A stretch of 39,743 nucleotides of DNA from Paludibacteraceae bacterium (GTDB lineage: Bacteria; Bacteroidota; Bacteroidia; Bacteroidales; Paludibacteraceae): contig JAFVTU010000004.1 in assembly GCA_017503075.1 (NCBI GenBank), positions 1 to 39,743 on the forward strand. The letters are read 5' to 3'. The position numbers and the translations under genes were made by a program. This document shows positions 11,082 through 32,645 of this stretch, piece by piece. The notes under the pieces were generated by a model. That model saw only the letters and a list, made by a program, of their open reading frames with translations, searched no databases and was not told the DNA's origin. Numbering within the stretch: position 1 is the stretch's first letter; each line of letters starts with the position of its first letter.

Positions 11082-13889
11082 ATGGAAATTTGGATAAACA
11101 TTGCAGGCGTTTTAGGATTAGTCTTTTTACTGGGCATGCTGATATGGTTTTGCGCCAAACCAATAGCACGAGATCAGTTGCTAGTGACATTCAATTGGAA
11201 GTATTTCCTCCTCGTAGCACTAATAATGATTGCATGTACTGCACTGATAGCATGGGCATTATCGATGCATTGGGTGAATAGTTTCAATGCCGAGAATGAC
11301 TTTTATCGTGCCGTCCAGTTTAGTCTAAAGATGAAAGAAGCTAAAGATGGCGATTTGAATATATTCTCATTCATCTTAGTCATGCTCTTCCAAGTCGTGG
11401 TGTTTGAGGGTCTAGTACTAGCGACCATCGTAGGCTGGACAGGACGCCGTGCGAAACGCTACCAAAATGGTGAAGTGAGATACCACTGTGTAGGAGTATT
11501 CAAAGGTATCTTAAGACGGGATGATTTTGCTGTCGTTATCGGTGCCAATGAGGTTGCGCCATCTGTAATCAAGAACCTATTGAAACACGAAGACAAGAAG
11601 AAAAACTCTCTCAACTACGCACACGAAAACGAGAACAAATATGTCATTTTGCAAACGAGTGGCAATGTGGCTAAGGTTCGCCAAATGCTGCAATCTTATC
11701 TGACGGAGAAAGAGTATAATCGTGTAATTATCTATAGCGATCTGCGCAATTCCTACGAAGGACTACAACACTTGCACCTGCAGCATGCATCTGAAATCTA
11801 TGTACTAGGCGAGAACACCACTCTCAATGGCGGCGAGACATTCCACGACACCATGAATATGCGCTGCGTGAATATGATCGCCAAGGTGTTGAGCAACAAA
11901 AAGGCACATAGAAGACTACTAAAACGAAGCTGTAGGTTGGATAGCAGAATCGCCAAACTGAATCAGGAGATTAAATGGCTGAGTGATAACCAAACCGAGA
12001 AAAACCAAAAGAAGGCTGAAAAGCTTAAGAATGGCATTAAGAAGAGATTAGAAAATAGATTATCACGCATTAATGACAAGATAGACCATCGCAAGAGAGT
12101 CTGCAAAGTACTCTTTGAGTACCAAACTACCTACTCTATTTTCCAATTCTCGGATGTCACGGAGGAGGTTAAGCAGGCTATGCACTTTATCCCATTCAAT
12201 CGCTACGAGTCATGGGCTCGCCGCGTGATTGTGGACAACCATGCATTGGCGCTCATTGATGAGAATGACGACAAGTGTAAACACGCAACAGAATACGACA
12301 ACAAAGTAACTTACAGACCACTTGATGGTTATGAGGGCATTCGATTTGATGATAAGCAACGCGTACACTTTATCGTAGTGGGCATGTCCAAGATGGGTGT
12401 AGCCATGGGCGTGCAAGCGCTATTCCAAGCCCACTACCCTAACTATGTTAACCATAAAGTCGGAAACCCTAGAAGCCGCATCACCTTCATTGATGCCAAT
12501 GCGGAGCAGGAGATGCAGTTCTTCAAAGGACGCTACGCTTCGCTATTCGAACTAGCGCGCCATCGCTATATAGATGCCAACACATGCAAAGAGAACCAAC
12601 TCAATAGTCGCTATGGTTGGGTAGATCCTACACGGCAGAAAGACTACCCATGGATGCATCTAAGCAAAGGGGGTAAGAACTTCTTAGATGTGGAGATTGA
12701 GTTTGTGAAGGGCGAGTTGGAGTCAGATGGAGTGCGCGAATATCTGCGCCAAGTGACGGCAGACGACAAATCCATGGTCACTATAGCTATCTGTTTGCCA
12801 GAGACACATCAGGCAGTAGCTGCCGCATTGTATATGCCAGCAGAGGTATATCCTCAGGTAAAAGAGATATGGGTATATCAACGCGAGGCAGCAGATATCA
12901 TTCGCAATCTCAACCCAGAGAACGACAACAAAGAGTTGAATGAACATTATAAGAAACTCAAACCATTTGGTATGCTCTACGGCGAATACATCGATAGTCG
13001 CACCTACTACCTCAAGGCGTTGCTAGTCAATGGTATATATGATTTGGATAAGAAAAGTGTTTTAGACCCACTTGACATGGATGACAAAACAACCTACAAA
13101 GACCTACGCAAGCGTTGGAATGGTTTGTCCGTAGCATTGAAGTGGTCAAATAAGTATTTTGCTGATACAATATACCAAAAGATCAGGAGTGCTATGCCTA
13201 CCCCACTAAAAGAAGATGCTGCTATTGGTGGATACAATAATCCTGCATTTTTCACCGAGGGGTGGTACGAAGAAATAAAGAATGCTTTGCAGAAGGCCGA
13301 TGGACTAGCAGAATGCGAGCACAACCGCTGGAATATACAACAACTGTTATTAGGGTTCACTCCTGCCGACAAAACAACATATCAATATATATGTACAGAA
13401 CAGAAGAAGACAGCTAAGCAACTTTCTCCACTCAGCAAGAAGAAAGAAAAATTTATCAAGGATAATACAAATTATTTGAAGAAATTATTGGAGGATATTA
13501 AAAATAAATTCCCAGCGAACGATTTGACGGAAAATGTGGACGATTTGAATTTCACTGAACTATTAGCGTTTATAGCTGAGAAAAACAAAAAGATTAAGAA
13601 GGAAAAGAATCAGATTGTCATCGATGCAGAGATGAGTGCACAACTTCAGGCAATGAAAGAGTGTGAGAAAAAAATCAACGAAATTAATAAACCTTTGACA
13701 CGATACAAAAAAGCACTCAAGTCCCCTATTAACAAGATTCACTACTGTATCTGCGATTTCGATCACCTGTACGCTGTGGACCCTGGTGCTAAGAAGTATG
13801 ATAAAAAGCTAAATGATAACATACCATTGATTCTCAAGTTGGTGGATGGGTATCACTATAAGAAGAAAGCAACAAACGCTACTAATTAA
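11082..13889 (+). CDS. Membrane TrkA-N/RyR domain protein (935 aa)
   Basis: Two or three membrane segments lie in the first 125 residues (5-27, 42-62, about 98-120). A first Rossmann-like segment (FAVVIGANEVAPSVIKNLL, near 150) follows, then a coiled coil (about 286-340). A second TrkA-N-type Rossmann segment (HFIVVGMSKMGVAMGVQALF, near 429) leads to TIAICLPETHQAVAAALYMP. A RyR-like helix (GLAECEHNRWNIQQLLLGF, near 740) and a Lys-rich coiled C-terminus end it. TrkA-N domains bind NAD(H) or related nucleotides. RyR domains are known in bacteria, including Bacteroides, and may bind nucleotide-like ligands. It begins a run with a second RyR protein and a metallopeptidase. I infer a membrane-anchored ligand sensor. 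Domain calls are by motif. Confidence 0.75.
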   Translation: MEIWINIAGVLGLVFLLGMLIWFCAKPIARDQLLVTFNWKYFLLVALIMIACTALIAWALSMHWVNSFNAENDFYRAVQFSLKMKEAKDGDLNIFSFILVMLFQVVVFEGLVLATIVGWTGRRAKRYQNGEVRYHCVGVFKGILRRDDFAVVIGANEVAPSVIKNLLKHEDKKKNSLNYAHENENKYVILQTSGNVAKVRQMLQSYLTEKEYNRVIIYSDLRNSYEGLQHLHLQHASEIYVLGENTTLNGGETFHDTMNMRCVNMIAKVLSNKKAHRRLLKRSCRLDSRIAKLNQEIKWLSDNQTEKNQKKAEKLKNGIKKRLENRLSRINDKIDHRKRVCKVLFEYQTTYSIFQFSDVTEEVKQAMHFIPFNRYESWARRVIVDNHALALIDENDDKCKHATEYDNKVTYRPLDGYEGIRFDDKQRVHFIVVGMSKMGVAMGVQALFQAHYPNYVNHKVGNPRSRITFIDANAEQEMQFFKGRYASLFELARHRYIDANTCKENQLNSRYGWVDPTRQKDYPWMHLSKGGKNFLDVEIEFVKGELESDGVREYLRQVTADDKSMVTIAICLPETHQAVAAALYMPAEVYPQVKEIWVYQREAADIIRNLNPENDNKELNEHYKKLKPFGMLYGEYIDSRTYYLKALLVNGIYDLDKKSVLDPLDMDDKTTYKDLRKRWNGLSVALKWSNKYFADTIYQKIRSAMPTPLKEDAAIGGYNNPAFFTEGWYEEIKNALQKADGLAECEHNRWNIQQLLLGFTPADKTTYQYICTEQKKTAKQLSPLSKKKEKFIKDNTNYLKKLLEDIKNKFPANDLTENVDDLNFTELLAFIAEKNKKIKKEKNQIVIDAEMSAQLQAMKECEKKINEINKPLTRYKKALKSPINKIHYCICDFDHLYAVDPGAKKYDKKLNDNIPLILKLVDGYHYKKKATNATN

Positions 13890-15700: not shown

Positions 15701-15912
15701 ATGAAAAGATTTTATCTCCTCTTTCTCACCATAATGGTTACCACATGCCTCTGGGCTGCATGGGGAATGGCGCAGAATTACAACGATATTCATCTGCCCA
15801 TCTATACGCGTGTGGGTGCACATGACTATATGTTCATAAAGATGATGTAGAGATCATCAGCCGCAAGGAATTGGCACTGCAAGCCCTCCAGTATCAGATG
15901 CAAAAGGAATAA
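15701..15912 (+). pseudogene. Frameshifted remnant of a small secreted protein
   Basis: From the ATG at 15701 a signal-peptide-like frame (KRFYLLFLTIMVTTCLWAAW, then GMAQNYNDIHLPIYTRV) runs 49 codons and stops at 15848-15850. In another frame the sequence continues from 15841 as DDVEIISRKELALQALQYQM then QKE and TAA at 15912, which reads like genuine protein. A single indel near 15840 would join them into about 70 residues. It has its own promoter. I do not recognise the family; loss of a larger middle portion is also possible. Confidence 0.5.
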
Positions 15913-15979
15913 CTAAAACACCAGCTCCATGTCCTATTCCGAAAAAGCAATAATTTTTTGGATTATGTTCCGAAAAAGT

Positions 15980-16010
15980 TTGGTGATTTAGAAAAATAGT
16001 AGTACCTTTG
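15980..16010 (+). promoter_or_regulatory. Promoter of first LRR-TIR unit
   Basis: TTG (15980-15982), a 20-nt spacer ending AAAAATAGTAG, then TACCTTTG (16003-16010). The downstream part is nearly identical to the promoter at 18386-18416, including the leader up to the ATG. Confidence 0.85.
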
Positions 16011-16050: not shown

Positions 16051-16854
16051 ATGAAACACATTCTATTTACACTATCGCTTCTAGCGATTGCAACCGCTGC
16101 GATGGCTAGTGATTTTACTGTGGATAAAATCACCTATGAGATTACCTCTCAACAGACTGTATCAATTGTGAGTGCGGATTCGACTATTCAATCTGCCAAT
16201 CTTATGCCAACTGTGACCTATCAAGGCATCACCTATAGTGTAACAAGTATAGGAGAACATGCCTTCGCTAATTGCTATTCCCTATCATCCGTTACTATTC
16301 CTAGTAGCGTAACAAGCATAGAAATGGGAGCTTTTGAGGCTTGTTCTTCACTGACATCCATCATCATCCCCAATAGTGTAACGAGCATTGGTAATCACGC
16401 ATTCCATGAATGTGAATCCCTAGCTGCCATTACCATCTCGGATAATTTAACCCATATTGATGGGCAGACTTTTGATGAGACGGCGTTTTACAAAGATCCT
16501 TCCAATTGGGAAGATGGCGTATTATACCTCGGTAATTGCCTCCTTGCTACCCAATCTGACATTTCGGGTGAGTATAGTATAAAAGAAGGCACTCGACTCA
16601 TTGACGCTTCCGCTTTTTCTCATAGCGAGTTGCTTACTGCTATCACCATCCCAAATAGTGTAACAACTATTGAATGGTTAGCGTTCAGCTATTGCACTTC
16701 ACTGAGCACTATTAACTACACGGGCACAATGGAGCAATGGGATAAGGTCATCAAAGGATATAAATGGAACTACAACATCCCCGCTCAAGCGGCTATTTGC
16801 ACAGATGGCTGTATATTACTGCCTAAGTCAGATGACGGCATGATTATACTCTGA
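16051..16854 (+). CDS. Secreted BspA-type LRR protein
   Basis: The start at 16051 is chosen because the promoter's -7 box ends at 16010, ruling out the ATG at 16012. The 267-residue product has a signal peptide (HILFTLSLLAIATAAMAS), a short beta region and BspA-type LRR_5 repeats of about 23 residues ([20 protein letters not shown]). It ends with a conserved cap (YTGTMEQWDKV and ICTDGCILLPKSDD). It is probably exported to the periplasm or surface. It sits 7 nt upstream of the TIR-TM-LRR gene and is probably its co-expressed partner. Its first 65 residues and C-terminus are nearly identical to the protein at 18458-19699. Confidence 0.88.
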   Translation: MKHILFTLSLLAIATAAMASDFTVDKITYEITSQQTVSIVSADSTIQSANLMPTVTYQGITYSVTSIGEHAFANCYSLSSVTIPSSVTSIEMGAFEACSSLTSIIIPNSVTSIGNHAFHECESLAAITISDNLTHIDGQTFDETAFYKDPSNWEDGVLYLGNCLLATQSDISGEYSIKEGTRLIDASAFSHSELLTAITIPNSVTTIEWLAFSYCTSLSTINYTGTMEQWDKVIKGYKWNYNIPAQAAICTDGCILLPKSDDGMIIL

Positions 16855-16861: not shown

Positions 16862-18238
16862 ATGGGAGAGCAGAAGAAATACGATGTGTTTATCAGCTAT
16901 TCGAGGAAGGATTTAGAGGAAGTAAGCACATTTGTAGAGATGCTAAAAACGCGCATCCCTACCCTTGAAGTCTGGATGGATCTTGAAGGGATTACCGCAG
17001 CAGATGAGTTTGATGAGAAAATCATCTCTGCCATAGATGCGTCATCGTATGTGATTTTTGCCGTATCTCCTAACTCCAACTCTATTGGAGAAGGTTCTTC
17101 GAAATGGACAAAAAAGGAGTTAGTTTATGCGAAAAATACAGGAAAAAAAGTTATTCCTGTATTGCTAAATGGCGCGGAACTGAATAGTTGGTTCCTCTTC
17201 GAGTTTGGTCGAGTAGATTGTATTGACAGTTCGAACAAACACCAAATAGAAAAATTGCTCAAAAACATCGCCAAATGGAGCAACAAAGAGTTAGTAAAAC
17301 CACAAAAAGAGAAAAAAGTCCTAACCCTGGATGAGCAACAATTGCTCAATGAAGCACGAACACTCAAAGATCGAATTGAGAAAAACAAACGAGTGGCAAA
17401 AATTGCGCTTATTTCAGTCTTGGCATTGTCAGTACTAACTATATCTATTGTATTTGGTATCAATCGCTACAAGGCATACAAAGCAATACAATATACGGTC
17501 CTCAACGACTCTATTGCCCCTTATACAATCGAGATTTCTGGTTTTGAACTTATAAACGGATACATCCCTAAAAAGATTTCTATTCCAAAAAAAATTAAAA
17601 AGAATGACACCACATATCTAGTAACCAGGATTGGAGATGGTGCGTTCAGCGGTTGCACCTCGCTGACTTCCGTAACCATCCCTAATAGCGTGACAGAGAT
17701 TGGACAAGATGCCTTTATAGGTTGCAGATCATTGATTTCCATTACCATCCCTAATAGCATAACGAGTATTGGCTGGTGGGCGTTCAGCAATTGCTCTAAC
17801 TTGACTTCGATTACTATCCCTAGTAGTGTGATTTGGATTGCATCCGGAGTGTTCTATAATTGCTCTTCTTTGACCTATGTAACTATCCCTAATAGCGTAA
17901 CAAAGATTGGACCGTATGCGTTCTATAAGTGCTCGGCGATAACCTCTGTAACTATCCCAAATAGCGTAACAGAAATTGGAGACAAGGCGTTCTGGGATTG
18001 CAAATCTTTGACTTCCGTGACTATCCCTAATAGCGTAACAGAGATTGGAGAAGGAACGTTCGAAGGTTGTACCTCGTTGACCTCGGTAACTATCCCTAAT
18101 AGCGTGACACATATTGGTGAAAGGGCGTTCGTTGGTTGTAGTAATCTTAAGGCCATTTACATCCCTCGAGGTTCTAAGGCACGCTTTGCGAAGATGTACT
18201 GTTTGGAGGATTTGCAGCATTTGCTCGTAGAACGATAA
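16862..18238 (+). CDS. TIR-transmembrane-LRR receptor-like protein
   Basis: This 458-residue protein has a clear TIR domain at residues 5-130 (KYDVFISYSRKDLEE, EVWMDLEGITAADEFDEKII) with SKWTKKELVYA, where E86 sits at the position of the NADase glutamate of catalytic TIRs. A linker, one membrane helix (residues 179-200, ALISVLALSVLTISIVFGI) and at least eight BspA-type LRR units (about 253-440, each ending in a GxAFxxC-like motif) follow. With Lys/Arg residues before the helix, the TIR should be cytoplasmic and the LRRs periplasmic. This is the domain content of animal Toll-like receptors in reversed order. It follows a secreted LRR gene by 7 nt. Sensing of an envelope or foreign ligand, with NAD+ cleavage as output, is inference. 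Confidence 0.93.
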   Translation: MGEQKKYDVFISYSRKDLEEVSTFVEMLKTRIPTLEVWMDLEGITAADEFDEKIISAIDASSYVIFAVSPNSNSIGEGSSKWTKKELVYAKNTGKKVIPVLLNGAELNSWFLFEFGRVDCIDSSNKHQIEKLLKNIAKWSNKELVKPQKEKKVLTLDEQQLLNEARTLKDRIEKNKRVAKIALISVLALSVLTISIVFGINRYKAYKAIQYTVLNDSIAPYTIEISGFELINGYIPKKISIPKKIKKNDTTYLVTRIGDGAFSGCTSLTSVTIPNSVTEIGQDAFIGCRSLISITIPNSITSIGWWAFSNCSNLTSITIPSSVIWIASGVFYNCSSLTYVTIPNSVTKIGPYAFYKCSAITSVTIPNSVTEIGDKAFWDCKSLTSVTIPNSVTEIGEGTFEGCTSLTSVTIPNSVTHIGERAFVGCSNLKAIYIPRGSKARFAKMYCLEDLQHLLVER

Positions 18239-18457: not shown

Positions 18458-19699
18458 ATGAAACACATTCTATTTACACTATCGCTTCTAGCGATTGCAA
18501 CCGCTGCGATGGCTAGTGATTTTACTGTGGATAAAATCACCTATGAGATTACCTCTCAACAGACTGTATCAATTGTGGGTGCGGATTCGACTATTCAATC
18601 TGCCAATCTTATGCCAACTGTGACCCATCAAGGCATTACCTATAGTGTAACAAGTATAGGAGAGAGAGCTTTTGAGAATTGTTCTTCACTAACATCCATC
18701 ATCATCCCCAATAGTGTAACGAGTATTGGTAATTTTGGTGGCGATTATGGTTATGGTTCTACTTCAGTACTCGGTAATATCCCCTATAGAACTGGGAACG
18801 TTTTTATGGGTTGCCCTTCACTTACAACGATTAAGGTAGATACAAGCAATCCATATTACGACAGCCGTAATAACTGCAACGCAATTATTGAAACGGCGAC
18901 AAACACCTTGATTGCTGGCTGTCAAAACACATTCATCCCTAATAGTGTAACGCGTATTGCCGATTTCACATTCTATAGATGCGAATCCCTTACTTCAATC
19001 ACAATTCCTAGTAGCGTAACAAGCATAGGAAACAATGCATTCTTTGGTACAGGCATCTATAATGACAAATCTAATTGGAGAGATGGAGCATTATACATCA
19101 ACGATTGTCTTATTACATTAGATAAGAATTACCGGGGTGATTATATGATACCAGAAGATACCCGCCTAATCGCCGATTGGGCATTCCAAGATTGCTCATT
19201 CATCACATCGGTCACACTTCCCAATAGCATAACCCATATCGGATGTGGAACTTTTTATGACTGCACCGCCCTTACTGCTATCACCATTCCAAATGGCGTG
19301 ACTAAGATTGAATCTTATGCGTTTGACAAGACGGGCATTTATTTAGATAGGGATAATTGGGAAGATGGGATACTATACATCACAAATTGTTTGATTGCTA
19401 TCAAGGATATAAAGGATGATTGTATCATCAAAGAAGACACTCGTCTTATTGCTGATTGGGCATTCTATGACTGCTCAACCATCAAATCCATCACCATCCC
19501 CAATAGCGTAATGATTATTGGAGAGTTGGCTTTCAGCTATTGCACTTCACTGAGCACGATTAACTATACGGGCACAATGGAGCAATGGGCTAAGGTTCTC
19601 CTCGGACGATGGGATTACAGCATCCCTGCGAAATCTGCTATTTGCACAGATGGTTGTATATTGCTGCCTAAGTCAGATGACGACATGATTATACTCTGA
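18458..19699 (+). CDS. Secreted BspA-type LRR protein, paralogue
   Basis: The start at 18458 follows the promoter; the upstream ATG at 18386 lies in the -33 box. The 413-residue product has the same signal peptide and first 65 residues as the protein at 16051 and the same C-terminal cap (YTGTMEQWAKV, ICTDGCILLPKSDD). It has more LRR_5 units, interrupted by IYLDRDNWEDGILYITNCLI-type inserts. It probably acts in the periplasm or on the surface. It heads a unit with the TPR gene (43 nt downstream, no promoter between) and the second TIR gene. Longer repeats than its sister suggest different ligand specificity; this is inference. Confidence 0.88.
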   Translation: MKHILFTLSLLAIATAAMASDFTVDKITYEITSQQTVSIVGADSTIQSANLMPTVTHQGITYSVTSIGERAFENCSSLTSIIIPNSVTSIGNFGGDYGYGSTSVLGNIPYRTGNVFMGCPSLTTIKVDTSNPYYDSRNNCNAIIETATNTLIAGCQNTFIPNSVTRIADFTFYRCESLTSITIPSSVTSIGNNAFFGTGIYNDKSNWRDGALYINDCLITLDKNYRGDYMIPEDTRLIADWAFQDCSFITSVTLPNSITHIGCGTFYDCTALTAITIPNGVTKIESYAFDKTGIYLDRDNWEDGILYITNCLIAIKDIKDDCIIKEDTRLIADWAFYDCSTIKSITIPNSVMIIGELAFSYCTSLSTINYTGTMEQWAKVLLGRWDYSIPAKSAICTDGCILLPKSDDDMIIL

Positions 19700-19742: not shown

Positions 19743-21914
19743 ATGAAGCACACAATACTAATCATACTGCTAACTACTTCTGTATTCTGTTATGCCGATT
19801 CAGTACAACAAGGCTGCGTAAAAACTCGTGGTCGTATGATCAATGGTAAACACGTTCCAGGTCAAGGATTGCCAGGCTCTATTGTTTCCATCAAAGACAG
19901 AACAGCTATTGGTGTTAAAAACAGCAATGGTACTTTTTCGTTCCCTGTTACAGACAACCACTTCCGTGTAGATTCGGTAAAGAAAAAGGACTATGTACTT
20001 TTGGATGCCGATGCCACTTCTAAGATATATACCCACACAGCGGATACGCTATTCTTCGTGATGGAAACACCTGAGCAAATTTTGCAAGATAAATTAGCCA
20101 CAGAGCGCCGACTGCGTCGTAGCCTGCAAGCTAAATTGCAAGCCCGCGAGGAGGATTTGGACTCATTGATAGCCCTTCAAAAGATTTCACAAAAGGAATA
20201 TCAGCAGAGTTTGCAAAAGTTATATGCCGAGCAAAGTGAGAATGATAAACTAATCAGCAATATGGCAGAACGCTACTCCACATTGGACTATGATCAAATG
20301 GATGAGTTCTATCGTCAAGTAAGTTACTATATCGAGCAATGTGAGTTTGTAAAGGCAGATTCTTTGCTAAAGACACGCGGTAATATACATGTGCAATTAG
20401 AAGCTGCTAAGCAGCAAGGACAAGCCATACAACAAGATGAAGAGAAATTACAGCGAGCAAAAGTTGTGCACCAACATGATATAGATGAATTGGCGAAACG
20501 TTGCTATAGTTATTTTGAGAATTTCAAAATGCAATACCAAAATGATTCGGCAGCATATTATTTAGAGCAACGCGTACAATTAGATCCAACAAATACACAA
20601 TGGTTAGAAGATTTAGCCGATTTTTTGAGGGATTATTTAGCTCAATATGATAAGGCGTTAGAATATTATCAAACAGCATTAGAGATTAGAAAACAAGTAT
20701 TGGGTGAATCTCACCCTGATGTGGCGCTATCATACAATAATATCGGACTAGTTTATAACGACCTTGGGGAATATAATCAAGCATTGGAACATAACCAACA
20801 AGCTTTAGCAATCAGGAAGCAAGTATTCGGTGAATCTCATCCAGATGTGGCCACCTCATACAATAATATTGGATTAGTTTATGGCGATCTAGGGGAATAT
20901 AATCAAGCGTTAGAATATATTCAACAATCATTAGCGATTTTGAAACAAGTGTATGGAGAATCGCATCCTAATGTAGCCACTTCATACAGCAACATTGGAT
21001 TCATTTATGAACACCTAGGGGAATATAATCAAGCATTGGAACATAACCAACAAGCTTTAGCAATCAGGAAGCAAGTATTCGGTGAATCTCATCCAGCTGT
21101 GGCCATCTCATACAATAACATTGGATTAACTTATGAACACCTAGGGAAATATAATCAAGCATTAGTACATCATCAACAAGCTTTAGCAATCAAAAAACAA
21201 GTGTTCGGTGAAGTTCATCCTGCTGTAGCAACTTCATACAATAACATTGGTGCTATATACGATTACCAAGGTGATCATGCCCTCGCATTGGAATATTATC
21301 AACAAGCTTTAACAATCAGGAAACAAGTGTTCGGTGAAGTTCATCCAGATGTTGCAGGTTCATACAATAATATTGGAGTTGTATGTTATTTTCAAGAAGA
21401 TTATGTTAGGGCATTAGAATATTTCCAACAGGCATTATCAATCCATAAGTTAGTATTCGGCGAGTTTCATCCTACCGTAGCCACCTCATGTAATAACTTA
21501 GGTACTATATATGATTTACATGGTGATTATATTCTAGCGTTAGAACATTATCAACAAGCGTTAGCAATCAGGAAGCAAATATTCGGTGAATCTCATCCAG
21601 ATGTGGCACTTTCATACAACAACATTGGATATATATATAGTGCCCAAGGTGATTATTCTCTCGCTTTGGAATATTATCAAAAAGCATTGGCTATCTATAA
21701 ACAAGCATTTGGAGATACTCATCCAATGGTAGCACTATCATACCATAATATTGGATATGTATATAATGCTCTAAGTGACTATGCCCTTGCCTTGGATTAC
21801 TACCAACAAGCATTAGATATAAGAAAACAGGCGTTAGGACAGGAACATCCAGATACAAAAGTTACACAAGAAAATATAGAAACAATTATACAAAAAATGA
21901 ACGAAACTAAATAA
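19743..21914 (+). CDS. Exported TPR protein with ten kinesin-light-chain-type repeats
   Basis: This 723-residue protein has an N-terminal signal peptide (HTILIILLTTSVFCYA) and a beta domain like CarboxypepD_reg (RGRMINGKHVPGQGLPGSI, about 25-100). A coiled coil (about 115-250) and ten perfectly spaced 42-residue TPRs (302-721) follow, of the form YNQALEHNQQALAIRKQVFG then ESHPDVATSYNNIG. It lacks a membrane helix after the signal, so it is probably periplasmic. Its stop is 3 nt from the ATG of the TIR-TM gene at 21918, implying tight coupling: an exported TPR scaffold presented to the periplasmic domain of that TIR protein is likely (inference). The NB-ARC/TPR logic of STAND proteins is absent because there is no NTPase. 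Confidence 0.88.
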   Translation: MKHTILIILLTTSVFCYADSVQQGCVKTRGRMINGKHVPGQGLPGSIVSIKDRTAIGVKNSNGTFSFPVTDNHFRVDSVKKKDYVLLDADATSKIYTHTADTLFFVMETPEQILQDKLATERRLRRSLQAKLQAREEDLDSLIALQKISQKEYQQSLQKLYAEQSENDKLISNMAERYSTLDYDQMDEFYRQVSYYIEQCEFVKADSLLKTRGNIHVQLEAAKQQGQAIQQDEEKLQRAKVVHQHDIDELAKRCYSYFENFKMQYQNDSAAYYLEQRVQLDPTNTQWLEDLADFLRDYLAQYDKALEYYQTALEIRKQVLGESHPDVALSYNNIGLVYNDLGEYNQALEHNQQALAIRKQVFGESHPDVATSYNNIGLVYGDLGEYNQALEYIQQSLAILKQVYGESHPNVATSYSNIGFIYEHLGEYNQALEHNQQALAIRKQVFGESHPAVAISYNNIGLTYEHLGKYNQALVHHQQALAIKKQVFGEVHPAVATSYNNIGAIYDYQGDHALALEYYQQALTIRKQVFGEVHPDVAGSYNNIGVVCYFQEDYVRALEYFQQALSIHKLVFGEFHPTVATSCNNLGTIYDLHGDYILALEHYQQALAIRKQIFGESHPDVALSYNNIGYIYSAQGDYSLALEYYQKALAIYKQAFGDTHPMVALSYHNIGYVYNALSDYALALDYYQQALDIRKQALGQEHPDTKVTQENIETIIQKMNETK
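20646..21905 (+). repeat. Ten tandem 126-bp coding repeats
   Basis: Ten units of 126 bp encode the TPR array with no change in phase. Units 2 and 4 share a nearly identical stretch of over 70 bp (near 20772 and 21024), which points to recent internal duplication or conversion. Confidence 0.8.
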
Positions 21915-21917: not shown

Positions 21918-23051
21918 ATGCAACCACAATACAAATATTTTGCCTTTATCAGTTATAACTCTCACGACATTGCTTGGGGGAAGCGACTTCAACGCAAATT
22001 AGAGGGTTATAGAATGTCAGCTACATTGTGTAGTGAACATGGATGGCAACGAAAACCTATCAATCCTATATTTTTTGCTCCCTCAGATATTCAGCCAGGT
22101 GGATTGACGGAAGAACTACAAGAAAGACTAAAAGCATCGCGTCATTTGATTGTAATATGTTCTCCTCATTCTGCACGATCAGAGTGGGTGGGAAAGGAAA
22201 TCGAATATTTCCATCAATTGGGACGTACCAAGAATATCCATTTCTTCATTGTGGATGGCGAACCACATAGCGGTAATCCTGATACCGAGTGTTTTAACCC
22301 AATAGTAGAAACTCTTGGACTACCTGAAATCCTAGGTGCCAATGTCCATGAACCAATATTTCGTTGGTCATGGCTGAATAAAGAGCGCGCCTATGTACAA
22401 CTGATTTCCAAACTATTAGGGGTTGAGTTCGATGCTATCTGGCAGCGTCACAAACGCCTATTGTATAGCAAGATTATTGCATGGACATTGGGGATATTGG
22501 GAATTTTGTCTACACTAACGAGCGTATATATCATAAACCAACCTACAGACGTCAAAGTAATGCTCAATGAAACCTCATACTCAAATAAATATCTTCCACC
22601 ATTGAAAAATGCAGATGTTACCTTAAAACTTCATAATGAGGGAAAAAAGGCAATAATACTTTCATTAGACTCATGTGCAACATTCCAAAACATCCCACAT
22701 AAATTCTTAAACAAAGAAGTAGAAATTTCGGTTCGTTGCAAAGATCACATAGATGTAGATACGACATTACTCCTGTCTGAAAATCTCACAATAGATATTT
22801 ATCGCAATCCCTCTATATATGGGGATGTTAAATTTCAAATATGGGATGAGAATGCCAACGGAGTACCACATGTTGGAGTGAAGATACTAGACTACGAAAC
22901 CACATCAGATGCCGAAGGATATGTATCACTATTCATTCCTCTGGAGCGACAGCGAACGAAATACCATGTAGAAAGTTCGGTTAAATTTGAACACGATACT
23001 ATTACGATGCCTAGTGGAGATAATGACATTCTAATTATTAATCCTTTTTAA
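21918..23051 (+). CDS. TIR-transmembrane protein with exported beta domain
   Basis: This 377-residue protein has a TIR-like domain at residues 5-175: YKYFAFISYNSHDIAWGKRL, FFAPSDIQPGGLTEELQERL and LIVICSPHSARSEWVGKEIE, with E94 at the expected catalytic position. One membrane helix (about 185-207) and a C-terminal exported part (208-377) follow, ending in a CarboxypepD_reg/Ig-like segment (VPHVGVKILDYETTSDAEGY). It is coupled to the TPR gene by a 3-nt gap. The region DIQPGG replaces the usual WMDxEGI, so it belongs to a different TIR subfamily from the other island members. Cytoplasmic TIR with a periplasmic sensor is inferred from topology. Confidence 0.87.
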   Translation: MQPQYKYFAFISYNSHDIAWGKRLQRKLEGYRMSATLCSEHGWQRKPINPIFFAPSDIQPGGLTEELQERLKASRHLIVICSPHSARSEWVGKEIEYFHQLGRTKNIHFFIVDGEPHSGNPDTECFNPIVETLGLPEILGANVHEPIFRWSWLNKERAYVQLISKLLGVEFDAIWQRHKRLLYSKIIAWTLGILGILSTLTSVYIINQPTDVKVMLNETSYSNKYLPPLKNADVTLKLHNEGKKAIILSLDSCATFQNIPHKFLNKEVEISVRCKDHIDVDTTLLLSENLTIDIYRNPSIYGDVKFQIWDENANGVPHVGVKILDYETTSDAEGYVSLFIPLERQRTKYHVESSVKFEHDTITMPSGDNDILIINPF

Positions 23052-23116: not shown

Positions 23117-23818
23117 ATGAACAGCACAACTATCATCCCCCTACTCTCTGCCCTCATTCCAGCTCTTGCATTGCTGGGATATATCTATTGGCAAGATCGT
23201 AAATCACCCGAGCCATGGCATAAGCTACTTAAAGCCACATTACTAGGCGTACTGGCCATACCATTGACTATGTGCATCGTCTTTCCATTGCAAACTATTG
23301 GCATCGTACCTGATTCGTACAATACTTTTGGCGATGTTGTGAATTTCTCTTTCCTCGGAGCTGCTATCCCAGAGGAACTCGCAAAACTATTGATGCTATG
23401 GCTCTTCTTGCGCAAGAATCCGTTTTTTGACGAGCGCATGGACGGTATCGTGTATGCTGTATGCGTGTCACTAGGCTTTGCGGGGTTGGAAAATGTGATG
23501 TATGTGCTTGGCAATACGGATTGGATGTCAGTGGCACTGATGCGCGCATTTACTGCTGTACCAGGACACTTCTGCTATGGTGTAATCATGGGCTATTTCT
23601 ACTCGCTGGCTAAGTTTGACCCTAAGAACCGAACCAAATATTCGATTTTGGCGCTAGTGGCACCTATCCTAGCACATGGCATCTATAACACGATAGCCTT
23701 TGCTACCACCTTACCGCTGGTACCTGAGATACTTTTGTATATCGTGTTTGTAGTCTTCTGCTTCCTGCTTTGGAGATGGGCAAGCAAGTCCATCAAGAAG
23801 CATTTAGAGACGGCGTAG
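23117..23818 (+). CDS. PrsW family intramembrane metalloprotease
   Basis: This 233-residue multi-spanning membrane protein has the PrsW signature set: AAIPEELAKLLMLW (E86, E87, K90), DERMDGIVYAVCVSLGFAGLEN (E125), AVPGHFCYGVIMGYF (H151) and APILAHGIYN (H187). About seven to eight helices are predicted. PrsW of Bacillus performs site-1 cleavage of the anti-sigma factor RsiW. Here no anti-sigma gene is adjacent; the gene lies between two TIR-TM genes, 65 nt after the first, with no clear promoter. I infer that the single-pass TIR proteins or other envelope sensors may be its substrates. Confidence 0.92.
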   Translation: MNSTTIIPLLSALIPALALLGYIYWQDRKSPEPWHKLLKATLLGVLAIPLTMCIVFPLQTIGIVPDSYNTFGDVVNFSFLGAAIPEELAKLLMLWLFLRKNPFFDERMDGIVYAVCVSLGFAGLENVMYVLGNTDWMSVALMRAFTAVPGHFCYGVIMGYFYSLAKFDPKNRTKYSILALVAPILAHGIYNTIAFATTLPLVPEILLYIVFVVFCFLLWRWASKSIKKHLETA

Positions 23819-24530: not shown

Positions 24531-26057
24531 ATGGCATCAGAGAAGAAAGAACGCATATTTATATCCTACAAGCGCGTAGATAAAGAGCGCGTGTTTGCTA
24601 TCAAGGATGGCATCGAGCAAGCGACTGGCGAGAAATGCTGGATCGACCTTGATGGCATCGAAAGCGATGCGCAGTTTGCGGATGTAATCATTAGCGCAAT
24701 CAATCATTGCGAGGTATTCCTCTTTATGTATTCTGCAACTCATGCGAAAATCGTAAATAATAAAAAAGATTGGACTATTCGTGAAATAAGTTTTGCTGAA
24801 AAAAAAGACAAACGAATTGTATTTATAAATATAGATAACACGCCATTAACAGATTGGTTCGAACTAAATTTTGGAACCGTTCAGCAAGTTGATGCCACCG
24901 ATGCTGAAAAACTAAAGCGCCTATATAAAGACTTATGCTCTTGGTTAAAAACAGATCTAAACACTTCTGTTGAAGTAGCAAAAGTCGGAAAAAATTCTTT
25001 TCGGCGTGTAATTGATACTATCACTCCGCCCACCCCATCTAGACGATGGTTATGGATTATATTAGTAGCAGTAGCGATGCTACTGATCGGCGGAGGTGCA
25101 TATCTAGCAAAGAAGAAGAGCACGACTACAACGCCAACTACGGCTACAACTACAACGCAGACACAAACACAAACACAAACACAAGATAGTTTGGCTCGTG
25201 CCCTACAAGCAGAGGCGGATCGTTTGGCTCAAGAGCGTGCCAAATTGGAGGCAGACAAAGCAAAACTGCAACAATCCAAGCCAACTGCCACCGCCCAACC
25301 AAAGCCAGTTGCCACAACAACACCAACCTCCACTTCGGCTTCCACTACATCTACAGAGCAAACATCTACTACCACCCCTACCACTCAGGCGAAACCCACA
25401 ACCACTTCTACCCCTAACAAGGTAAGTGCGGTCGCTATTCACAATGGGCATAAGTATGTGGATTTGGGATTGTCTGTAATGTGGGCAACTACTAATGTGG
25501 GAGCCAACAGTTCTAATTTAGAAGGGAAGTATTTTGCGTGGGGAGAAGTGAATGCGAAGCAAGAATATACATGGAATACATATAGACATTGCGTTACTGG
25601 TCCCTATGATTTTACTAAATATTGCAAGAAAACCAATGCATACAATGGTGAGTATATTGACAATAAATCTCGATTGGAATTGGCAGATGATGCAGCGCAT
25701 GTACATTGGGGAGGGAAATGGCGTATGCCCACTGCAGCAGAGATGAAGGAACTGATAAAAAGATGTAAATGGCAATGCGTTACTCGTAATGGAGTAAAAG
25801 GACAATTGGGTACTGGTCCGAATGGTAATACAATATTTTTACCGATAACAGGGATGTATAGCGGAGCAAATAAAATGTCTGCTGGTTATACTGGAGCATA
25901 TTGGTCGAGTACATTGGACGAGCCATTTATCAATTCTGCAATTCATATGTATGTAAACGAAATACAACCTAATACAGCAGAACAACAGCGTTATGTAGGT
26001 GCAAATATTCGCCCTGTATTAAGTCGTGAAGATATAACAGATTCGGCAAATCATTAA
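24531..26057 (+). CDS. TIR-transmembrane-FISUMP surface receptor-like protein
   Basis: The start at 24531 (MASEKKERIF) follows the promoter and matches the paralogue at 29093. The 508 residues contain a TIR domain (1-145: ERIFISYKRVDKERVFAIKD, KCWIDLDGIES, KDWTIREISFA with E85), one membrane helix (173-192) and a Thr/Gln-rich and coiled linker (195-300). A FISUMP domain (303-503: HKYVDLGLSVMWATTNVG, WGGKWRMPTAAEMKEL, YWSSTLDE, NIRPVL) ends it. FISUMP domains are typical exported domains of Bacteroidota and Fibrobacter. The topology puts TIR inside and FISUMP outside. A strong terminator follows. The first 45 codons are almost identical at DNA level to the gene at 29093. Confidence 0.92.
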   Translation: MASEKKERIFISYKRVDKERVFAIKDGIEQATGEKCWIDLDGIESDAQFADVIISAINHCEVFLFMYSATHAKIVNNKKDWTIREISFAEKKDKRIVFINIDNTPLTDWFELNFGTVQQVDATDAEKLKRLYKDLCSWLKTDLNTSVEVAKVGKNSFRRVIDTITPPTPSRRWLWIILVAVAMLLIGGGAYLAKKKSTTTTPTTATTTTQTQTQTQTQDSLARALQAEADRLAQERAKLEADKAKLQQSKPTATAQPKPVATTTPTSTSASTTSTEQTSTTTPTTQAKPTTTSTPNKVSAVAIHNGHKYVDLGLSVMWATTNVGANSSNLEGKYFAWGEVNAKQEYTWNTYRHCVTGPYDFTKYCKKTNAYNGEYIDNKSRLELADDAAHVHWGGKWRMPTAAEMKELIKRCKWQCVTRNGVKGQLGTGPNGNTIFLPITGMYSGANKMSAGYTGAYWSSTLDEPFINSAIHMYVNEIQPNTAEQQRYVGANIRPVLSREDITDSANH

Positions 26058-26150: not shown

Positions 26151-26193
26151 CAACGATAAATTATTATTTCATACAATATTGAGCACTATAGAT

Positions 26194-27528
26194 ATGTTTA
26201 AACTAAAAAAAAGTGTAGTTTTGTTTCTCTTCCTATTGAGTTGCATTACCTACTCATTCGCACAGGTTCAATATGAGGTTACCGCTCAACCATCCTTAAA
26301 AATACGTAACGCAGCTAGTCCCAATGCGATCGTAGTGAGCAACTTGAATTATGGCGACCGAATAAATGTCTATACGATTAAAGAAGGTTGGGCTGAAATT
26401 AGATTCAATGGGAAAAAAGCTTATGTCAATGCAACTTACATCAAGCCTTGCCCATCCACTACTACAGTAAAAACACCTGCTAAGTCCTCTTTTATTACCT
26501 CAAGAGAGATTGCTGTTTATGAAGTTATTTCTACACAGCCACTAGATGTTGTTAATTTAGCAGGTTATAAGAAAGGGACTCTTCAACCAGGTCAAAAGAT
26601 TGAAGTGTATTCTATCAGAGATGGCAAAGCATTGATTAGACATAAGGGGAAACAAGCATATGTAAATGCGAGTTATCTAAAGCCATGCTATCAAAGCCAT
26701 AATAAAGAATTTACTCCAAAATATGTGAATGTAGATTACTACGCAACAGGCAATGTAGAATGGATGATTTATGTCATTCTCTCGTTAGCTGTTGTGTTGT
26801 TAATTCTACGATACTTTATCAAAATTACTTTTGAATGTGATGGAAATCCCAAAATACTGCTACTGATAAATCGACTGTTATTTTTAGTACTAGCAGGATT
26901 TGAATTTGCATATGTTTTGTTAATGGGATCAGATGCTCTATGGTTCTGCCAACCAAGTACAGTAGGATGGATATGGACAATTGTTAATTTTATTTTGTTC
27001 GGAACTCTGATTTATACTCAAGTGATAAGTTATTTTATAGTGGTAGTTCATAGTAAATTTTCAACTAAAATCGGGGAGTGCTCGTGGCTAATATTTGCAT
27101 TTATCACATTGCTTTATTCGACATTTTCATGGGAACATGGATATGAGACCATTTTGTATCTATTCGGAGCATGTCAGTTGATACAATTATTTCTCATTTT
27201 CAAAGGCGTTATTCCGCAAGAAGGCATAATAAAAGCATTGTGGTTTTCGTTGCTTTATTTAGTAGCATCTGCTGCTACGATTTTAATGATATCTCTTTGG
27301 ATAAAAATGCTTATTATTGCCATGCTTATTTTAATGTTTATAAAAGGAGCATTTAGCAATAAGCGTACTGCCGATTCTTTAGAGGATAAATCTAGAAACA
27401 CTGTATATGGAAGGCGTATTAACGATGATACTTTTGAAACGAACAGCGGAAAATTGTATGATCGAGTAGGCAATACCAACGAGTTCCAAAAACGGCATGG
27501 AAGTAGTGATTCGTTATTCGAAAACTAG
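26194..27528 (+). CDS. Exported double-SH3b protein with six to seven membrane segments
   Basis: I choose the ATG at 26194 over the TTG at 26179. The 444-residue product has a signal peptide (SVVLFLFLLSCITYSFAQ) and two SH3b-type domains (about 25-85 and 102-160; LKIRNAASPNAIVVSNLNYG, GKKAYVNATYIKP and GKQAYVNASYLKP). Hydrophobic segments between about 185 and 395 and a polar cytoplasmic tail follow. SH3b domains usually bind peptidoglycan or peptides. The layout resembles a 7TM receptor with an extracellular sensor, and it lies directly upstream of a TIR gene. Base composition is more AT-rich than the left part of the window, suggesting acquisition. Confidence 0.75.
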   Translation: MFKLKKSVVLFLFLLSCITYSFAQVQYEVTAQPSLKIRNAASPNAIVVSNLNYGDRINVYTIKEGWAEIRFNGKKAYVNATYIKPCPSTTTVKTPAKSSFITSREIAVYEVISTQPLDVVNLAGYKKGTLQPGQKIEVYSIRDGKALIRHKGKQAYVNASYLKPCYQSHNKEFTPKYVNVDYYATGNVEWMIYVILSLAVVLLILRYFIKITFECDGNPKILLLINRLLFLVLAGFEFAYVLLMGSDALWFCQPSTVGWIWTIVNFILFGTLIYTQVISYFIVVVHSKFSTKIGECSWLIFAFITLLYSTFSWEHGYETILYLFGACQLIQLFLIFKGVIPQEGIIKALWFSLLYLVASAATILMISLWIKMLIIAMLILMFIKGAFSNKRTADSLEDKSRNTVYGRRINDDTFETNSGKLYDRVGNTNEFQKRHGSSDSLFEN

Positions 27529-30321: not shown

Positions 30322-31776
30322 ATGACCAAACAAGAAGCTGCCATAAAGTACATTACGGAGAATTATCTCGAATACAATCGGCTGAGGCATGACATTGTGA
30401 GCGATAAACTCCAAATTCGCATGGATTTGGAGGGTTCAGAATGGTTCAACGTAGTTCAAAATGGTTCAACAGTTGTTCAAAATGGTTCAGAGTTGTCCTT
30501 CAAGAAAACAACATTGAACAATATTGAACGCGAAGCATTGAACAATATTGAACAAGGCTATTGGCGAGAGATGACAAAGCATGACATCAACTCTATTGTG
30601 TGTCATTGTGCGCAGGAGTACGATGCGAATATAACGAGTAGAGAAGTGATGACAGCACTCCAATCGGATCTGATACCCGATGTGCACCCGCTGAGGGAGT
30701 ATGTGTTGTCGTGTGGAGAATGGACGGAGGAGCAACCGGATTGGATTGACTTTGTCGCATCTCAGGTAAAGGTAAAAACCTCACCTGAGGGCGACAGTTT
30801 AGAGGACGCCGCAAGCGGCTACAGTTTAGAGTTTAGAGACGAGGGAAACAATGCTACACCATCCTACACAACTCTACACCACACTACACCAAGCGCGGAC
30901 GCCCTCTGGCGGGCGTGCTTTAAGAAGTGGTTCGTAGCGATGGTGGCGAGTTGGATGAAAGATGAGGTGGTGAATCATCAGGTGCTGGTGCTAATCGGTA
31001 AACAAGGTATCTTTAAGACTACTTGGCTCGAACATTTGATACCACCACATTTGAGGGCATACGCCTGCAAGTTGGCGAATAGCAATGACCTCAACAAAGA
31101 TGAACGCTTGCGTATTGCGGAGTTTGGGTTGATCTCGCTGGATGAGATTGACTCGATGAACAACCGCGAGTTGAATCAACTGAAATCGGTCATCACCGCC
31201 ACGGATGTGAACGAGCGTGCTGCCTATGCTTACACCAAGGAGCGTAGGGTGCGGTTGGCTAGTTTCTGCGCGAGTGGTAATAGGCGGGATTTTCTGACGG
31301 ACATCACGGGCAATAGGCGTTGGCTACCGTTTGAAGTGGAGGAAATACAAAATCCGTTTTTCACCCTCCTGCCTTACGAGCGGATGTATGCGCAAGCGTG
31401 GGCATTGGCACAAGATCCGCTATTCAGCTATTGGTTTGACTTGGATGAGATAGAGGTGCTGGAGGAGCATAATCAGCATTTTAGGGATGAGAGTAATGAG
31501 GAGCAGTTGTTGCCGATACTCTTTGATGTGCCAGCGGAGGGCAAAGGCGAGTTTATGACGACGGCACAGATAAGTGAGCGATTGGTGACCTACGGCAACA
31601 TTAAGAAGCCAATGGCGTTAGGTCGTTTAGGAGTAGTCATGGGTAGTATGGGATATAGATCTGTTACACGAGGCAATAGGCAAGCACGTTTGCGCGGATG
31701 GATTGTATATCAACGAGATACAGAAGAAATTGCTGCTAACAAAAAACTTTTAGCTAAAGAATGTGTAACAGTGTAA
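30322..31776 (+). CDS. VapE-type P-loop ATPase (primase-helicase-like)
   Basis: This 484-residue protein carries the VapE/D5-like ATPase core: LVLIGKQGIFKTTWLEHLIP (Walker A, near 226), RIAEFGLISLDEIDSMN (Walker B, near 270), ASFCASGNRRDFLTDITGNR and RWLPFEV (sensor/arginine region, near 320-335). VapE proteins occur on integrated elements and phage satellites and support replication. The N-terminal region carries in-frame low-complexity insertions (about residues 38-77 and 158-191). The TAA stop lies in an octamer repeat of the inverted repeat at 31763-31848. It heads the accessory cassette. Confidence 0.88.
   Translation: MTKQEAAIKYITENYLEYNRLRHDIVSDKLQIRMDLEGSEWFNVVQNGSTVVQNGSELSFKKTTLNNIEREALNNIEQGYWREMTKHDINSIVCHCAQEYDANITSREVMTALQSDLIPDVHPLREYVLSCGEWTEEQPDWIDFVASQVKVKTSPEGDSLEDAASGYSLEFRDEGNNATPSYTTLHHTTPSADALWRACFKKWFVAMVASWMKDEVVNHQVLVLIGKQGIFKTTWLEHLIPPHLRAYACKLANSNDLNKDERLRIAEFGLISLDEIDSMNNRELNQLKSVITATDVNERAAYAYTKERRVRLASFCASGNRRDFLTDITGNRRWLPFEVEEIQNPFFTLLPYERMYAQAWALAQDPLFSYWFDLDEIEVLEEHNQHFRDESNEEQLLPILFDVPAEGKGEFMTTAQISERLVTYGNIKKPMALGRLGVVMGSMGYRSVTRGNRQARLRGWIVYQRDTEEIAANKKLLAKECVTV
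30433..30553 (+). repeat. In-frame GGTTCAA and ATTGAAC repeats in VapE gene
   Basis: At 30433-30495, GGTTCA/GTTCAA words recur every 9-12 nt and encode NVVQNGSTVVQNGSEL. At 30512-30553 an 18-nt word (CATTGAACAATATTGAAC) occurs twice, 24 nt apart. All keep the frame. Confidence 0.75.
30793..30892 (+). repeat. In-frame hairpin plus CAGTTTAGAG and CTACACCA words
   Basis: ACAGTTTAGAG words flank a GCCGC-AA-GCGGC palindrome (30808-30819) and are followed by CTACACCA/CTACACAA words (30852-30892). Together they encode an apparent linker, about residues 158-191 of the VapE protein. Confidence 0.7.
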
Positions 31777-31848
31777 CACTTCTTTTACTATTCTCGTCCG
31801 CGCGTGTACGGGGACGAGACATAAGAAATAGTTGTTACACCGTTACAC
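31763..31848. repeat. Iterated octamers in inverted orientation
   Basis: Two GTGTAACA octamers (31763-31778) face TGTTACAC and CGTTACAC (31833-31848): a 16-bp inverted repeat with one mismatch. A CTCGTCC/GGACGAG hairpin lies between. It overlaps the VapE stop codon. It could be a protein-binding site (iteron or operator) or a terminator-like structure. Confidence 0.65.
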
Positions 31849-31885
31849 GCAAAACACCCCTTAAATTAACTAAATTTTTACAACT

Positions 31886-32071
31886 ATGAACAAGAGTCAA
31901 ATTCGATTTGCAATGGCAGCACACGCTGCATGGATTGTAATGAAAAACCCCGTATTAACACGCGTTTATATGGAGCAATGGGAGAAGATGTACCCACGAC
32001 CATTGTCGGTGGAAGGCGAAGAACTGACACTGTATGGGTATGTGTTTCAGGTGATGTATAAGGCTGCATAG
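31886..32071 (+). CDS. Small protein of unknown function (61 aa)
   Basis: The product (MNKSQIRFAMAAHAAWIVMK, then RVYMEQWEKMYPRPLSVEGE) is amphipathic and helical, with no signal or membrane segment. It follows the octamer repeats after the VapE gene, preceded by an A/T-rich leader typical of translation starts here. Codon use looks coding. The function is unknown. Position in the cassette and length suggest a DNA-element accessory protein; this is inference. Confidence 0.6.
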   Translation: MNKSQIRFAMAAHAAWIVMKNPVLTRVYMEQWEKMYPRPLSVEGEELTLYGYVFQVMYKAA

Positions 32072-32087
32072 ATGTCTCTTGGCTCTT

Positions 32088-32132
32088 TCGCGACCACTTC
32101 GCGACCACTATATCATATCAGTGGCTGATATG
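32088..32132. other. Direct repeat plus hairpin
   Basis: TTCGCGACCAC occurs twice in tandem (about 32087-32108) and is followed by the perfect hairpin CATATCAG-TGG-CTGATATG (32114-32132) in the gap before the next gene. This may be an operator or attenuator. Confidence 0.5.
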
Positions 32133-32159
32133 TACCACATCTCTAAACACTAAACTAAT

Positions 32160-32429
32160 ATGCAAGTTTCCTTTCACTCCCCAGTAGCGGGTCTCATTGG
32201 CAAATTAGAATACAATAGCAAGTTTTACATCCGCAAGATGCATGGTAAATACATCTTGCAGCGTTGTCCCAACCGCCAAAACCATATTCCCACACCCCAC
32301 GAGAAAGCCAACCAACAACGGTTTATTCAGCAGTATAAACGGCTGCGCCGTGGTGATGGCTCGCAAGCGAGCGGTAGTGTCACCGATGGGCGAGGTGCCA
32401 GTTTAGAGATTAAAGGCAAGGAAAAATGA
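32160..32429 (+). CDS. Small basic cassette protein (89 aa)
   Basis: The product (MQVSFHSPVAGLIGKLEYNS, YIRKMHGKYILQRCPNRQNH, then PTPHEKANQQRFIQQYKRL) is basic, with short strands followed by a helix. It seems distantly similar in layout to the proteins at 35434 and 35964. Its last 24 or so residues come from the hairpin/word repeat family (GCTCGC-AA-GCGAGC at 32359-32372, CAGTTTAGAG near 32401), so the original C-terminus was probably extended. Its stop overlaps the next start as ATGA. The function is unknown. Confidence 0.6.
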   Translation: MQVSFHSPVAGLIGKLEYNSKFYIRKMHGKYILQRCPNRQNHIPTPHEKANQQRFIQQYKRLRRGDGSQASGSVTDGRGASLEIKGKEK

Positions 32430-32605
32430 AATCAAGAACTAAAATAGAACTCTCTCGCGCAGCGGGTGTGAGTCCAGAGACCTTCCGCCGTTGGCTGAAG
32501 ACCGACCGTGCTTTTCTGGAGGCGAACGGCATCCGCCCCACCACTAAGCTCTTTCCACCTAAAGTAGTCAAATACCTTTGTGACAAATACGCCATCGACC
32601 TCTAA
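32426..32605 (+). CDS. Small HTH-like protein, DUF4248-like
   Basis: A 59-codon frame starts in an ATGA overlap with the previous stop (translational coupling). The protein has a helix-turn-helix-like start (RTKIELSRAAGVSPETFRRW) and ends with KLFPPKVVKYLCDKYAIDL. This resembles, from memory, the DUF4248 proteins found beside VapE genes in Bacteroides. It probably binds DNA and may regulate the cassette. The family call is tentative. Confidence 0.62.
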   Translation: MKSRTKIELSRAAGVSPETFRRWLKTDRAFLEANGIRPTTKLFPPKVVKYLCDKYAIDL

Positions 32606-32645
32606 ACACTCATCACTAAACTCTAAACAGTAGCGGCTTTGCCGC
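32606..32645. repeat. CTCTAAAC words with GCGGC-TTT-GCCGC hairpin
   Basis: Read on the minus strand this is a hairpin (32633-32645) followed by TACTGTTTAGAGTTTAG, matching the element at 30808-30840 in the VapE gene in opposite orientation. Confidence 0.65.

Follow-up and report, generated by a model that had tools for sequence, protein, structure and literature searches.

Background

Animal Toll receptors join a cytoplasmic TIR domain, one membrane helix and leucine-rich repeats (LRRs) across the membrane in a single chain. A gene from a bacterium of the Bacteroidales, described as gut-dwelling, raises the question of whether bacteria have arrived at a receptor of the same plan. The gene lies in a stretch of 39,743 nucleotides from a Paludibacteraceae bacterium (assembly GCA_017503075.1, contig JAFVTU010000004.1), which was analysed as a whole and is referred to here as the window. 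An earlier note, made from the sequence alone, had read the encoded protein as an N-terminal TIR domain with a candidate catalytic Glu, one membrane helix and an outward-facing BspA-type LRR domain, with a secreted LRR partner encoded immediately upstream. That reading was followed up here with profile searches, structure models, a survey of related TIR proteins and an inspection of the surrounding genes.

Prokaryotic TIR groups have diverse architectures, as described in the accessible part of a TIR survey (PMC7075850), and both TIR and STAND domains occur in predicted conflict systems, according to the available portions of PMC7159879 and PMC10907252. In the accessible excerpts of the literature, the named triggers of bacterial TIR defence are phage capsids for staphylococcal Thoeris and the phage protein YonE for SpbK; both systems respond to phage proteins, presumably in the cytoplasm.

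Results and discussion

The TIR domain and its candidate catalytic glutamate

Along the 458-residue chain the order is TIR, helix, LRR (Table 1). The TIR_2 profile (PF13676) matches residues 9-132 with 60.1 bits against a cut-off of 28. From the single sequence, AF2 produced no usable model of the TIR domain (pLDDT about 35); run on residues 1-210 with a 66-row alignment, it recovered a TIR fold. The resulting model matched solved TIR structures, the catalytic TIRs SARM1, AbTir and SPARTA being among the top matches. Because the fold was recovered with the alignment and matched to solved structures, the assignment is not due to chance, and the first reading of the N-terminus is upheld by structure prediction as well as by profile.

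The candidate catalytic residue, E86 (codon 17117-17119), is the Glu of W82-T-K-K-E86, a WxxxE motif. It is invariant in 11 of 11 rows of one alignment and in 66 of 66 rows of a larger one, the latter having been chosen as TIR matches, and in SARM1 chains its aligned counterpart is the Glu of WVHKE, presumably SARM1 E642. The conserved Glu and the structural matches suggest that the domain is probably an NADase acting through E86. Defence matches from PADLOC, run on ten window proteins, and from NCBIfam were weak or below cut-off.

The membrane helix and the LRR domain

Hydropathy singles out one 19-residue window, 176-194 (mean 1.69), which lies inside a helix predicted at 156-209 in the AF2 model; the single membrane helix proposed after the TIR domain is thus retained. 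Beyond it, the LRR_5 profile (PF13306) scores 245.6 bits against a cut-off of 27.7. Seven regular 23-residue units start at residues 268, 291, 314, 337, 360, 383 and 406, preceded, by eye, by a degenerate unit (Cys265) and followed by a short cap, so that the original count of at least eight BspA-type units is a fair one. In the single-sequence AF2 model the LRR part reaches a pLDDT of about 90, and the solenoid matches BspA-type structures, among them TpLRR of T. pallidum (TMt 0.71).

Topology of the LRR domain

A folded N-terminal domain of about 178 residues without a signal peptide, followed by one helix, leads us to infer an N-in/C-out orientation. In a diderm 'outside' here means the periplasm, not the cell surface. 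Charge statistics were taken from 60 TIR proteins in which a single helix follows the TIR domain. When the 15 residues on either side of the helix are compared, Lys and Arg are more numerous on the N-terminal side in 43 proteins, fewer there in 4 and equal in 13. The window protein's own bias is weak (4 before, 3 after).

A further statistic is the Bacteroidota O-glycosylation motif, used on exported sequence only and counted here as D(S/T)(A/I/L/V/M/T); a wider motif is also reported. Enrichment was expressed as observed counts against shuffled sequence, signal peptides and helices were called by simple in-house hydropathy rules, and the rows kept were those from Bacteroidota with no more than one helix following the TIR. 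In 43 Bacteroidota TIR-helix proteins the sequence beyond the helix contains the motif 74 times against 32.3 in shuffles (2.29-fold, z 7.6), and in 62 exported control proteins of the same loci the enrichment is 2.45-fold (z 12.9). The C-termini of 68 helix-less TIR proteins stand at chance (27 against 26.1, 1.03-fold), controls without signal or helix at 1.27-fold (164 proteins, z 3.5), and the TIR domains themselves at 1.30-fold (n = 125, z 2.3). At least one motif is found in 34 of the 43 TIR-helix proteins and in 19 of the 68 helix-less ones. For five related control motifs the values beyond the helix range from 0.61 to 1.51-fold, with the N(S/T)x type at the top (1.51-fold, z 3.1; 1.35-fold in proteins without a helix). 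Within the window protein the motif occurs twice, at residues 216 and 249, both beyond the helix. Among nine TIR-LRR_5 fusions, described below, it fails to separate helix from helix-less forms, one of the latter (L036:7293-8999) having three.

C-termini beyond the helix are thus extracytoplasmic as a matter of family-wide motif and charge statistics, by which the LRR domain of the window protein is most likely periplasmic, on the non-cytoplasmic side where it had originally been placed. As an observation of wider use, exported and cytoplasmic parts of Bacteroidota proteins can be told apart by how densely D(S/T)(A/I/L/V/M/T) occurs in them, and this measure may serve as a general topology test.

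Distribution among relatives

Related TIR proteins were collected from 178 genomes of the genus (TIR matches in 28 and 30 genomes in two scans), from 393 genomes drawn from the order (matches in 34) and from the best 80 of at least 423 loci of a GTDB scan, whose matching contigs are titled as Paludibacteraceae bins from ruminants. Leaving out 33 partial or multi-TIR ORFs, and 9 more in which the TIR match was short, reduced the 194 distinct TIR ORFs, 168 of them complete, to 152 rows; a weak LRR call (L041:7227-7991, E 8.5e-7) was also dropped.

A helix follows the TIR domain in 76 of the 152 proteins and LRR_5 in nine, all nine exceeding both Pfam cut-offs. Five of the nine have the helix: the window protein, L016 (G063), L017 (G031), L079 (G142) and L171 (G071). 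The remaining four (two in G052, L041 in G117 and L161 in G142) have none. The architecture that the earlier note proposed to look for therefore recurs in four other genomes, as part of a broader set in which the helix is common and several C-terminal modules occur, LRR_5 among them, and not as an isolated layout. The accompanying view of the LRRs as a membrane ectodomain fits the five fusions with a helix and not the four without. All nine fusions fall among the 47 rows from this genus and none among the 105 others; as the survey is a sample, their absence beyond the genus is provisional. Among the ORFs fetched, the linker-helix segment had no match other than its own copies from the window, and no full-length relative was found. 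A tblastn search with residues 1-210 gave no plasmid match, and IMG/VR yielded two distant TIR loci.

Exchange of C-terminal modules

By Pfam, the C-termini with a helix (n = 43) comprise FGE-sulfatase in 7, LRR_5 in 5, Sel1 in 3 and Lcl_C in 1; those without (n = 57, the 11 of 68 shorter than 40 residues being left out; 25 of 37 families listed) comprise Sel1 in 24, FGE-sulfatase in 7, LRR_5 in 4 and Lcl_C in 4. All four modules are thus present in both forms. In a TIR tree of the 152 rows, which has few columns and many open forks, the LRR label needs at least six changes and the helix label 29. The window TIR groups with L048 and L049 (SH-aLRT 99), to which it is 62% and 59% identical over the TIR domain (among the best 80 of at least 423 loci); both lack the helix and carry Lcl_C in place of the LRR. 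The other TIR-TM-LRR_5 proteins, from four genomes, belong to other TIR lineages. The plan therefore seems to have been built by domain swapping, and the protein belongs to a modular set of TIR proteins, with or without a helix and with interchangeable LRR_5, FGE-sulfatase, Lcl_C or Sel1 modules, often found in gene islands.

The gene island

Five TIR or TIR-like genes, all on the forward strand, lie between 16862 and 29902 (Table 1). In genome G000 the only other TIR_2 match is on contig C10. Some relatives likewise have clustered TIR genes, and some have them beside TIR-SIR2 and nSTAND1 genes.

Table 1. Features of the TIR-TM-LRR locus and its island, in window coordinates
Feature	Position	Strand	Basis
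Promoter-like -33/-7 site upstream of the LRR / TIR-TM-LRR pair	15979..16010	+	Pattern TTTG-N17..23-TAnnTTTG; suggestive only
Signal-peptide LRR_5 protein 1	16051..16854	+	LRR_5 117.8 bits; signal-peptide-like start
TIR - membrane helix - LRR_5 protein, 458 aa	16862..18238	+	ATG start; ORF listing, Pfam and models
TIR domain, residues 9-132	16886..17257	+	TIR_2
Membrane helix core, residues 176-194	17387..17443	+	Hydropathy and predicted helix
BspA-type LRR domain, residues 254-450	17621..18211	+	LRR_5, profile span
Signal-peptide LRR_5 protein 2, partial duplicate of protein 1	18458..19699	+	LRR_5 157.8 bits
Signal-peptide TPR protein	19743..21914	+	TPR_12
TIR - membrane helix protein, 377 aa, C-terminus without known Pfam family	21918..23051	+	TIR_2 43.0 bits; helix 186-204
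PrsW-family intramembrane protease	23117..23818	+	PF13367 128.9 bits, cut-off 23.5
TIR - membrane helix - Lcl_C-like protein	24531..26057 (ORF listed from TTG 24507)	+	TIR_2 45.5 bits; Lcl_C 24.3 bits, below cut-off 34.9
Divergent TIR-like protein, 461 aa	27639..29024	+	TIR_2 14.8 bits, below cut-off; weak match of TIR profile built here
TIR - Sel1 protein without membrane helix	29093..29902	+	TIR_2 46.2 bits, Sel1 110.6 bits

The ORF of LRR protein 1 is listed from a GTG at 16012, the ATG given in Table 1 being, by eye, the better start. The promoter-like site ahead of it follows what we take to be the Bacteroidota-type -33/-7 consensus; given this site and the gap of only 7 nt to the TIR-TM-LRR gene, the two genes probably form one transcript. 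The pattern has seven matches in the window, counting both strands. Co-regulation of the island through a shared promoter was considered and rejected: a strict shared pattern occurs five times in the genome, three of them in the island, and a looser form at 34 sites, four of them on this contig, so that it is probably an ordinary promoter type. A separate promoter-like match lies at 15643, and a short ORF noticed by eye at 15701-15850 has an exported-protein-like start and stops after 49 codons.

The suggestion that the secreted LRR protein upstream is a partner of the receptor did not carry over to the other four TIR-TM-LRR genes, whose upstream neighbours are a phosphoglucomutase (L160), an outer-membrane efflux protein (L163), DUF1846 (L164) and PrsW (L171); as an obligate partner it is rejected. 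Secreted LRR proteins do occur near other TIR genes in G013 and G069. LRR gene 2 is 94% identical in DNA to the start of LRR gene 1 over 302 bases. Of the LRR_5 genes, four lie in the window, and matches above cut-off are found on 10 contigs of G000. Equal-score LRR_5 matches on contigs C17/C28 and C4/C26 indicate that the assembly may hold the same stretch twice. Downstream, exported TPR genes that are alike precede the same 377-residue TIR gene here and in G071.

Further observations concern the neighbourhoods of the relatives and the remainder of the window. By Pfam, a TIR-SIR2 protein is encoded directly beside an nSTAND1 NTPase in L163:7107-12056 (G063) and L186:9053-14294 (G013), and L176 (G093) resembles this pair by layout alone. 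RyR-domain proteins (PF02026, over the cut-off) lie at L181:7358-9074 and L186:3080-5809, upstream of a membrane-TIR gene of the 377-residue type. They adjoin a sigma-like gene, which scores below cut-off in L181 and has no Pfam match in L186, and the arrangement possibly bears on the regulation of the membrane-TIR gene. Within the window, a 935-residue protein (11082-13889) has several predicted helices, no Pfam or NCBIfam match and, by eye, an RyR-like stretch near residue 740; the suspected RyR domain was rejected, with no Pfam match and a 21-residue match to an RyR protein at E 0.39. The product of 26179-27528, inside the island, has a signal-like start, a bacterial SH3 domain and several membrane helices. 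The region 30322-35055 encodes a VapE-like protein and then a C5 cytosine methyltransferase (32735-34078), whose 257-residue neighbour, without a Pfam match, could be a restriction partner.

Comparison with known systems

The parallel with animal Toll and Toll-like receptors, whose layout is described in the accessible part of PMC7075850, lies in a cytoplasmic TIR, one helix and an LRR domain, here most likely across the membrane as well. Unlike them, the window protein has its TIR first, its LRRs are BspA-type and most likely periplasmic, not at the cell surface, and the catalytic-type Glu is kept. In the tree of related TIR proteins, the nearest TIR rows found are bacterial and have other C-termini. 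With the order reversed and the nearest kin carrying other modules, the protein is Toll-like in plan but not a Toll-like receptor. Of the original statement that it has the domain content of such receptors in reversed order, the content and the order hold, and the likeness itself would be a convergence of plan, given the BspA type of the repeats, the reversed order and the different C-terminus of the closest TIR kin.

SARM1, AbTir, the SPARTA TIR-APAZ protein and Thoeris ThsB have the TIR fold and the WxxxE Glu in common with the window protein, which differs in adding a helix and an LRR sensor in one chain and in that its NADase activity is putative. Among the ten window proteins scanned with PADLOC there were weak ThsB matches (best E 1.3e-6), no ThsA and no Argonaute, and the C-terminus of the window protein is a helix and LRR_5, not the APAZ of SPARTA. 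The BspA-type LRR proteins TpLRR and BACOVA_04585 share the repeats and the fold, with no TIR fusion in the entries listed. Closer at hand are proteins of the same TIR subfamily from the genus and order, the helix-less TIR-LRR_5 proteins (L018, L036, L041, L161) and the TIR-Lcl_C proteins (L048, L049); the former have the same LRR_5 module, and neither group has a helix, so that both are presumably cytoplasmic. The putative antigen sensors diversified by DGRs are likewise exchangeable, are predicted on either membrane side and count TIR among their linked effectors, but usually have a C-type-lectin fold diversified by a retroelement (accessible portion of PMC10907252). No reverse transcriptase was seen among the window proteins scanned with Pfam, a subset of the ORFs.

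Searches of open-access papers on TIR proteins, outside which most subscription papers lie, found no description of a bacterial TIR-TM-LRR protein, and the available parts of PMC9092222 and PMC8195603 do not describe one either; within the papers searched, the concern that the architecture might already be a characterised system is therefore set aside.

A proposed mechanism and its alternatives

We put at about even the chance that the protein is a single-pass inner-membrane receptor, with a cytoplasmic TIR and a periplasmic BspA-type LRR, that is clustered by ligand and cleaves NAD+ through E86. An envelope-side ligand, such as a phage, envelope damage or the product of a rival, would engage the periplasmic LRR, perhaps with help from the co-encoded secreted LRR protein. 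Ligand would cluster the receptor and bring the TIR domains together, and the assembled TIRs would then cleave NAD+ through E86, leading to growth arrest or death, or to an ADP-ribose signal.

A different mode of activation is suggested by the protease gene of the island. The tether would keep the TIR inactive until PrsW, upon periplasmic engagement, cut the TIR-helix proteins and freed the domain. PrsW follows the 377-residue TIR-helix gene directly in G000, G071 and G069 (TIR 78% identical in G071 and 77% in G069), a second copy adjoins the TIR-TM-LRR gene in G071, and in G003 and G093 it lies some 3 kb from the TIR match on the same contig. Precedents come from the accessible parts of PMC3482391, where PrsW acts as site-1 protease on a single-pass anti-sigma factor, and PMC13142454, where an amoebal TIR is restrained by a membrane helix and toxic without it, its authors suggesting release by proteolysis. 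Set against this, 127 of the 178 genomes of the genus have PrsW, usually once; it does not share a contig with the more distant full-length homologues of the 377-residue protein (lists compared by eye); and three of the four other TIR-TM-LRR loci have none in the stretch fetched. PrsW as a general partner is rejected, being directly beside the 377-residue TIR gene in three genomes only; its frequency in the genus and its location apart from the distant homologues make it a local partner at most, and we consider release by PrsW unlikely. Rather unlikely, too, is a regulator of envelope stress or the cell surface, in which the TIR would be a scaffold passing on a periplasmic signal with neither NADase activity nor a part in phage defence. 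Many window neighbours are exported proteins, and in L181 and L186 RyR proteins and a weakly sigma-like gene are found in the vicinity of relatives of the 377-residue TIR gene, but the sigma match falls short of the Pfam cut-off and the window showed no such gene. A scaffold is also at odds with a WxxxE Glu kept in every row of the 66-row alignment and with NADase TIRs among the top structural matches.

The remaining alternatives bear on the LRR half. It might be cytoplasmic, the hydrophobic segment being a mere anchor or not inserted and the repeats sensing inside the cell like those of the helix-less cousins; four helix-less TIR-LRR_5 proteins in the same genus and the weak charge bias of the window protein would fit. 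The protein has a single clear hydrophobic segment, set within a long predicted helix, and both of its O-glycosylation motifs lie beyond it; together with the family-wide motif and charge statistics, these features make this reading very unlikely. Equally improbable in our estimation is a chance chimera, in which repeated LRR sequences recombined and so joined a TIR-helix gene to an LRR gene, no receptor function having been selected. LRR genes are duplicated on both sides of the TIR-TM-LRR gene, no full-length relative turned up among the ORFs fetched and the nearest TIR kin carry Lcl_C; yet the 458-codon frame is intact, TIR-TM-LRR_5 proteins with other TIR lineages exist in four other genomes, and the repeats have diverged (58-77% pairwise at the DNA level), so that the array was not freshly made.

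Conclusions

The best reading of the protein is a modular membrane-spanning TIR receptor with exchangeable sensors that probably acts as a defence NADase. More tentatively, and in our view less likely than not, the genus may run a set of membrane-spanning TIR immune receptors whose exchangeable periplasmic sensors (LRR_5, FGE-sulfatase, Lcl_C) detect phage or rivals and signal by TIR clustering or PrsW release, the Toll-like plan having been reached independently. If the sensor of such a TIR protein faces the periplasm, some bacteria would have envelope-facing innate receptors built by domain swapping, in parallel to the Toll receptors of animals.
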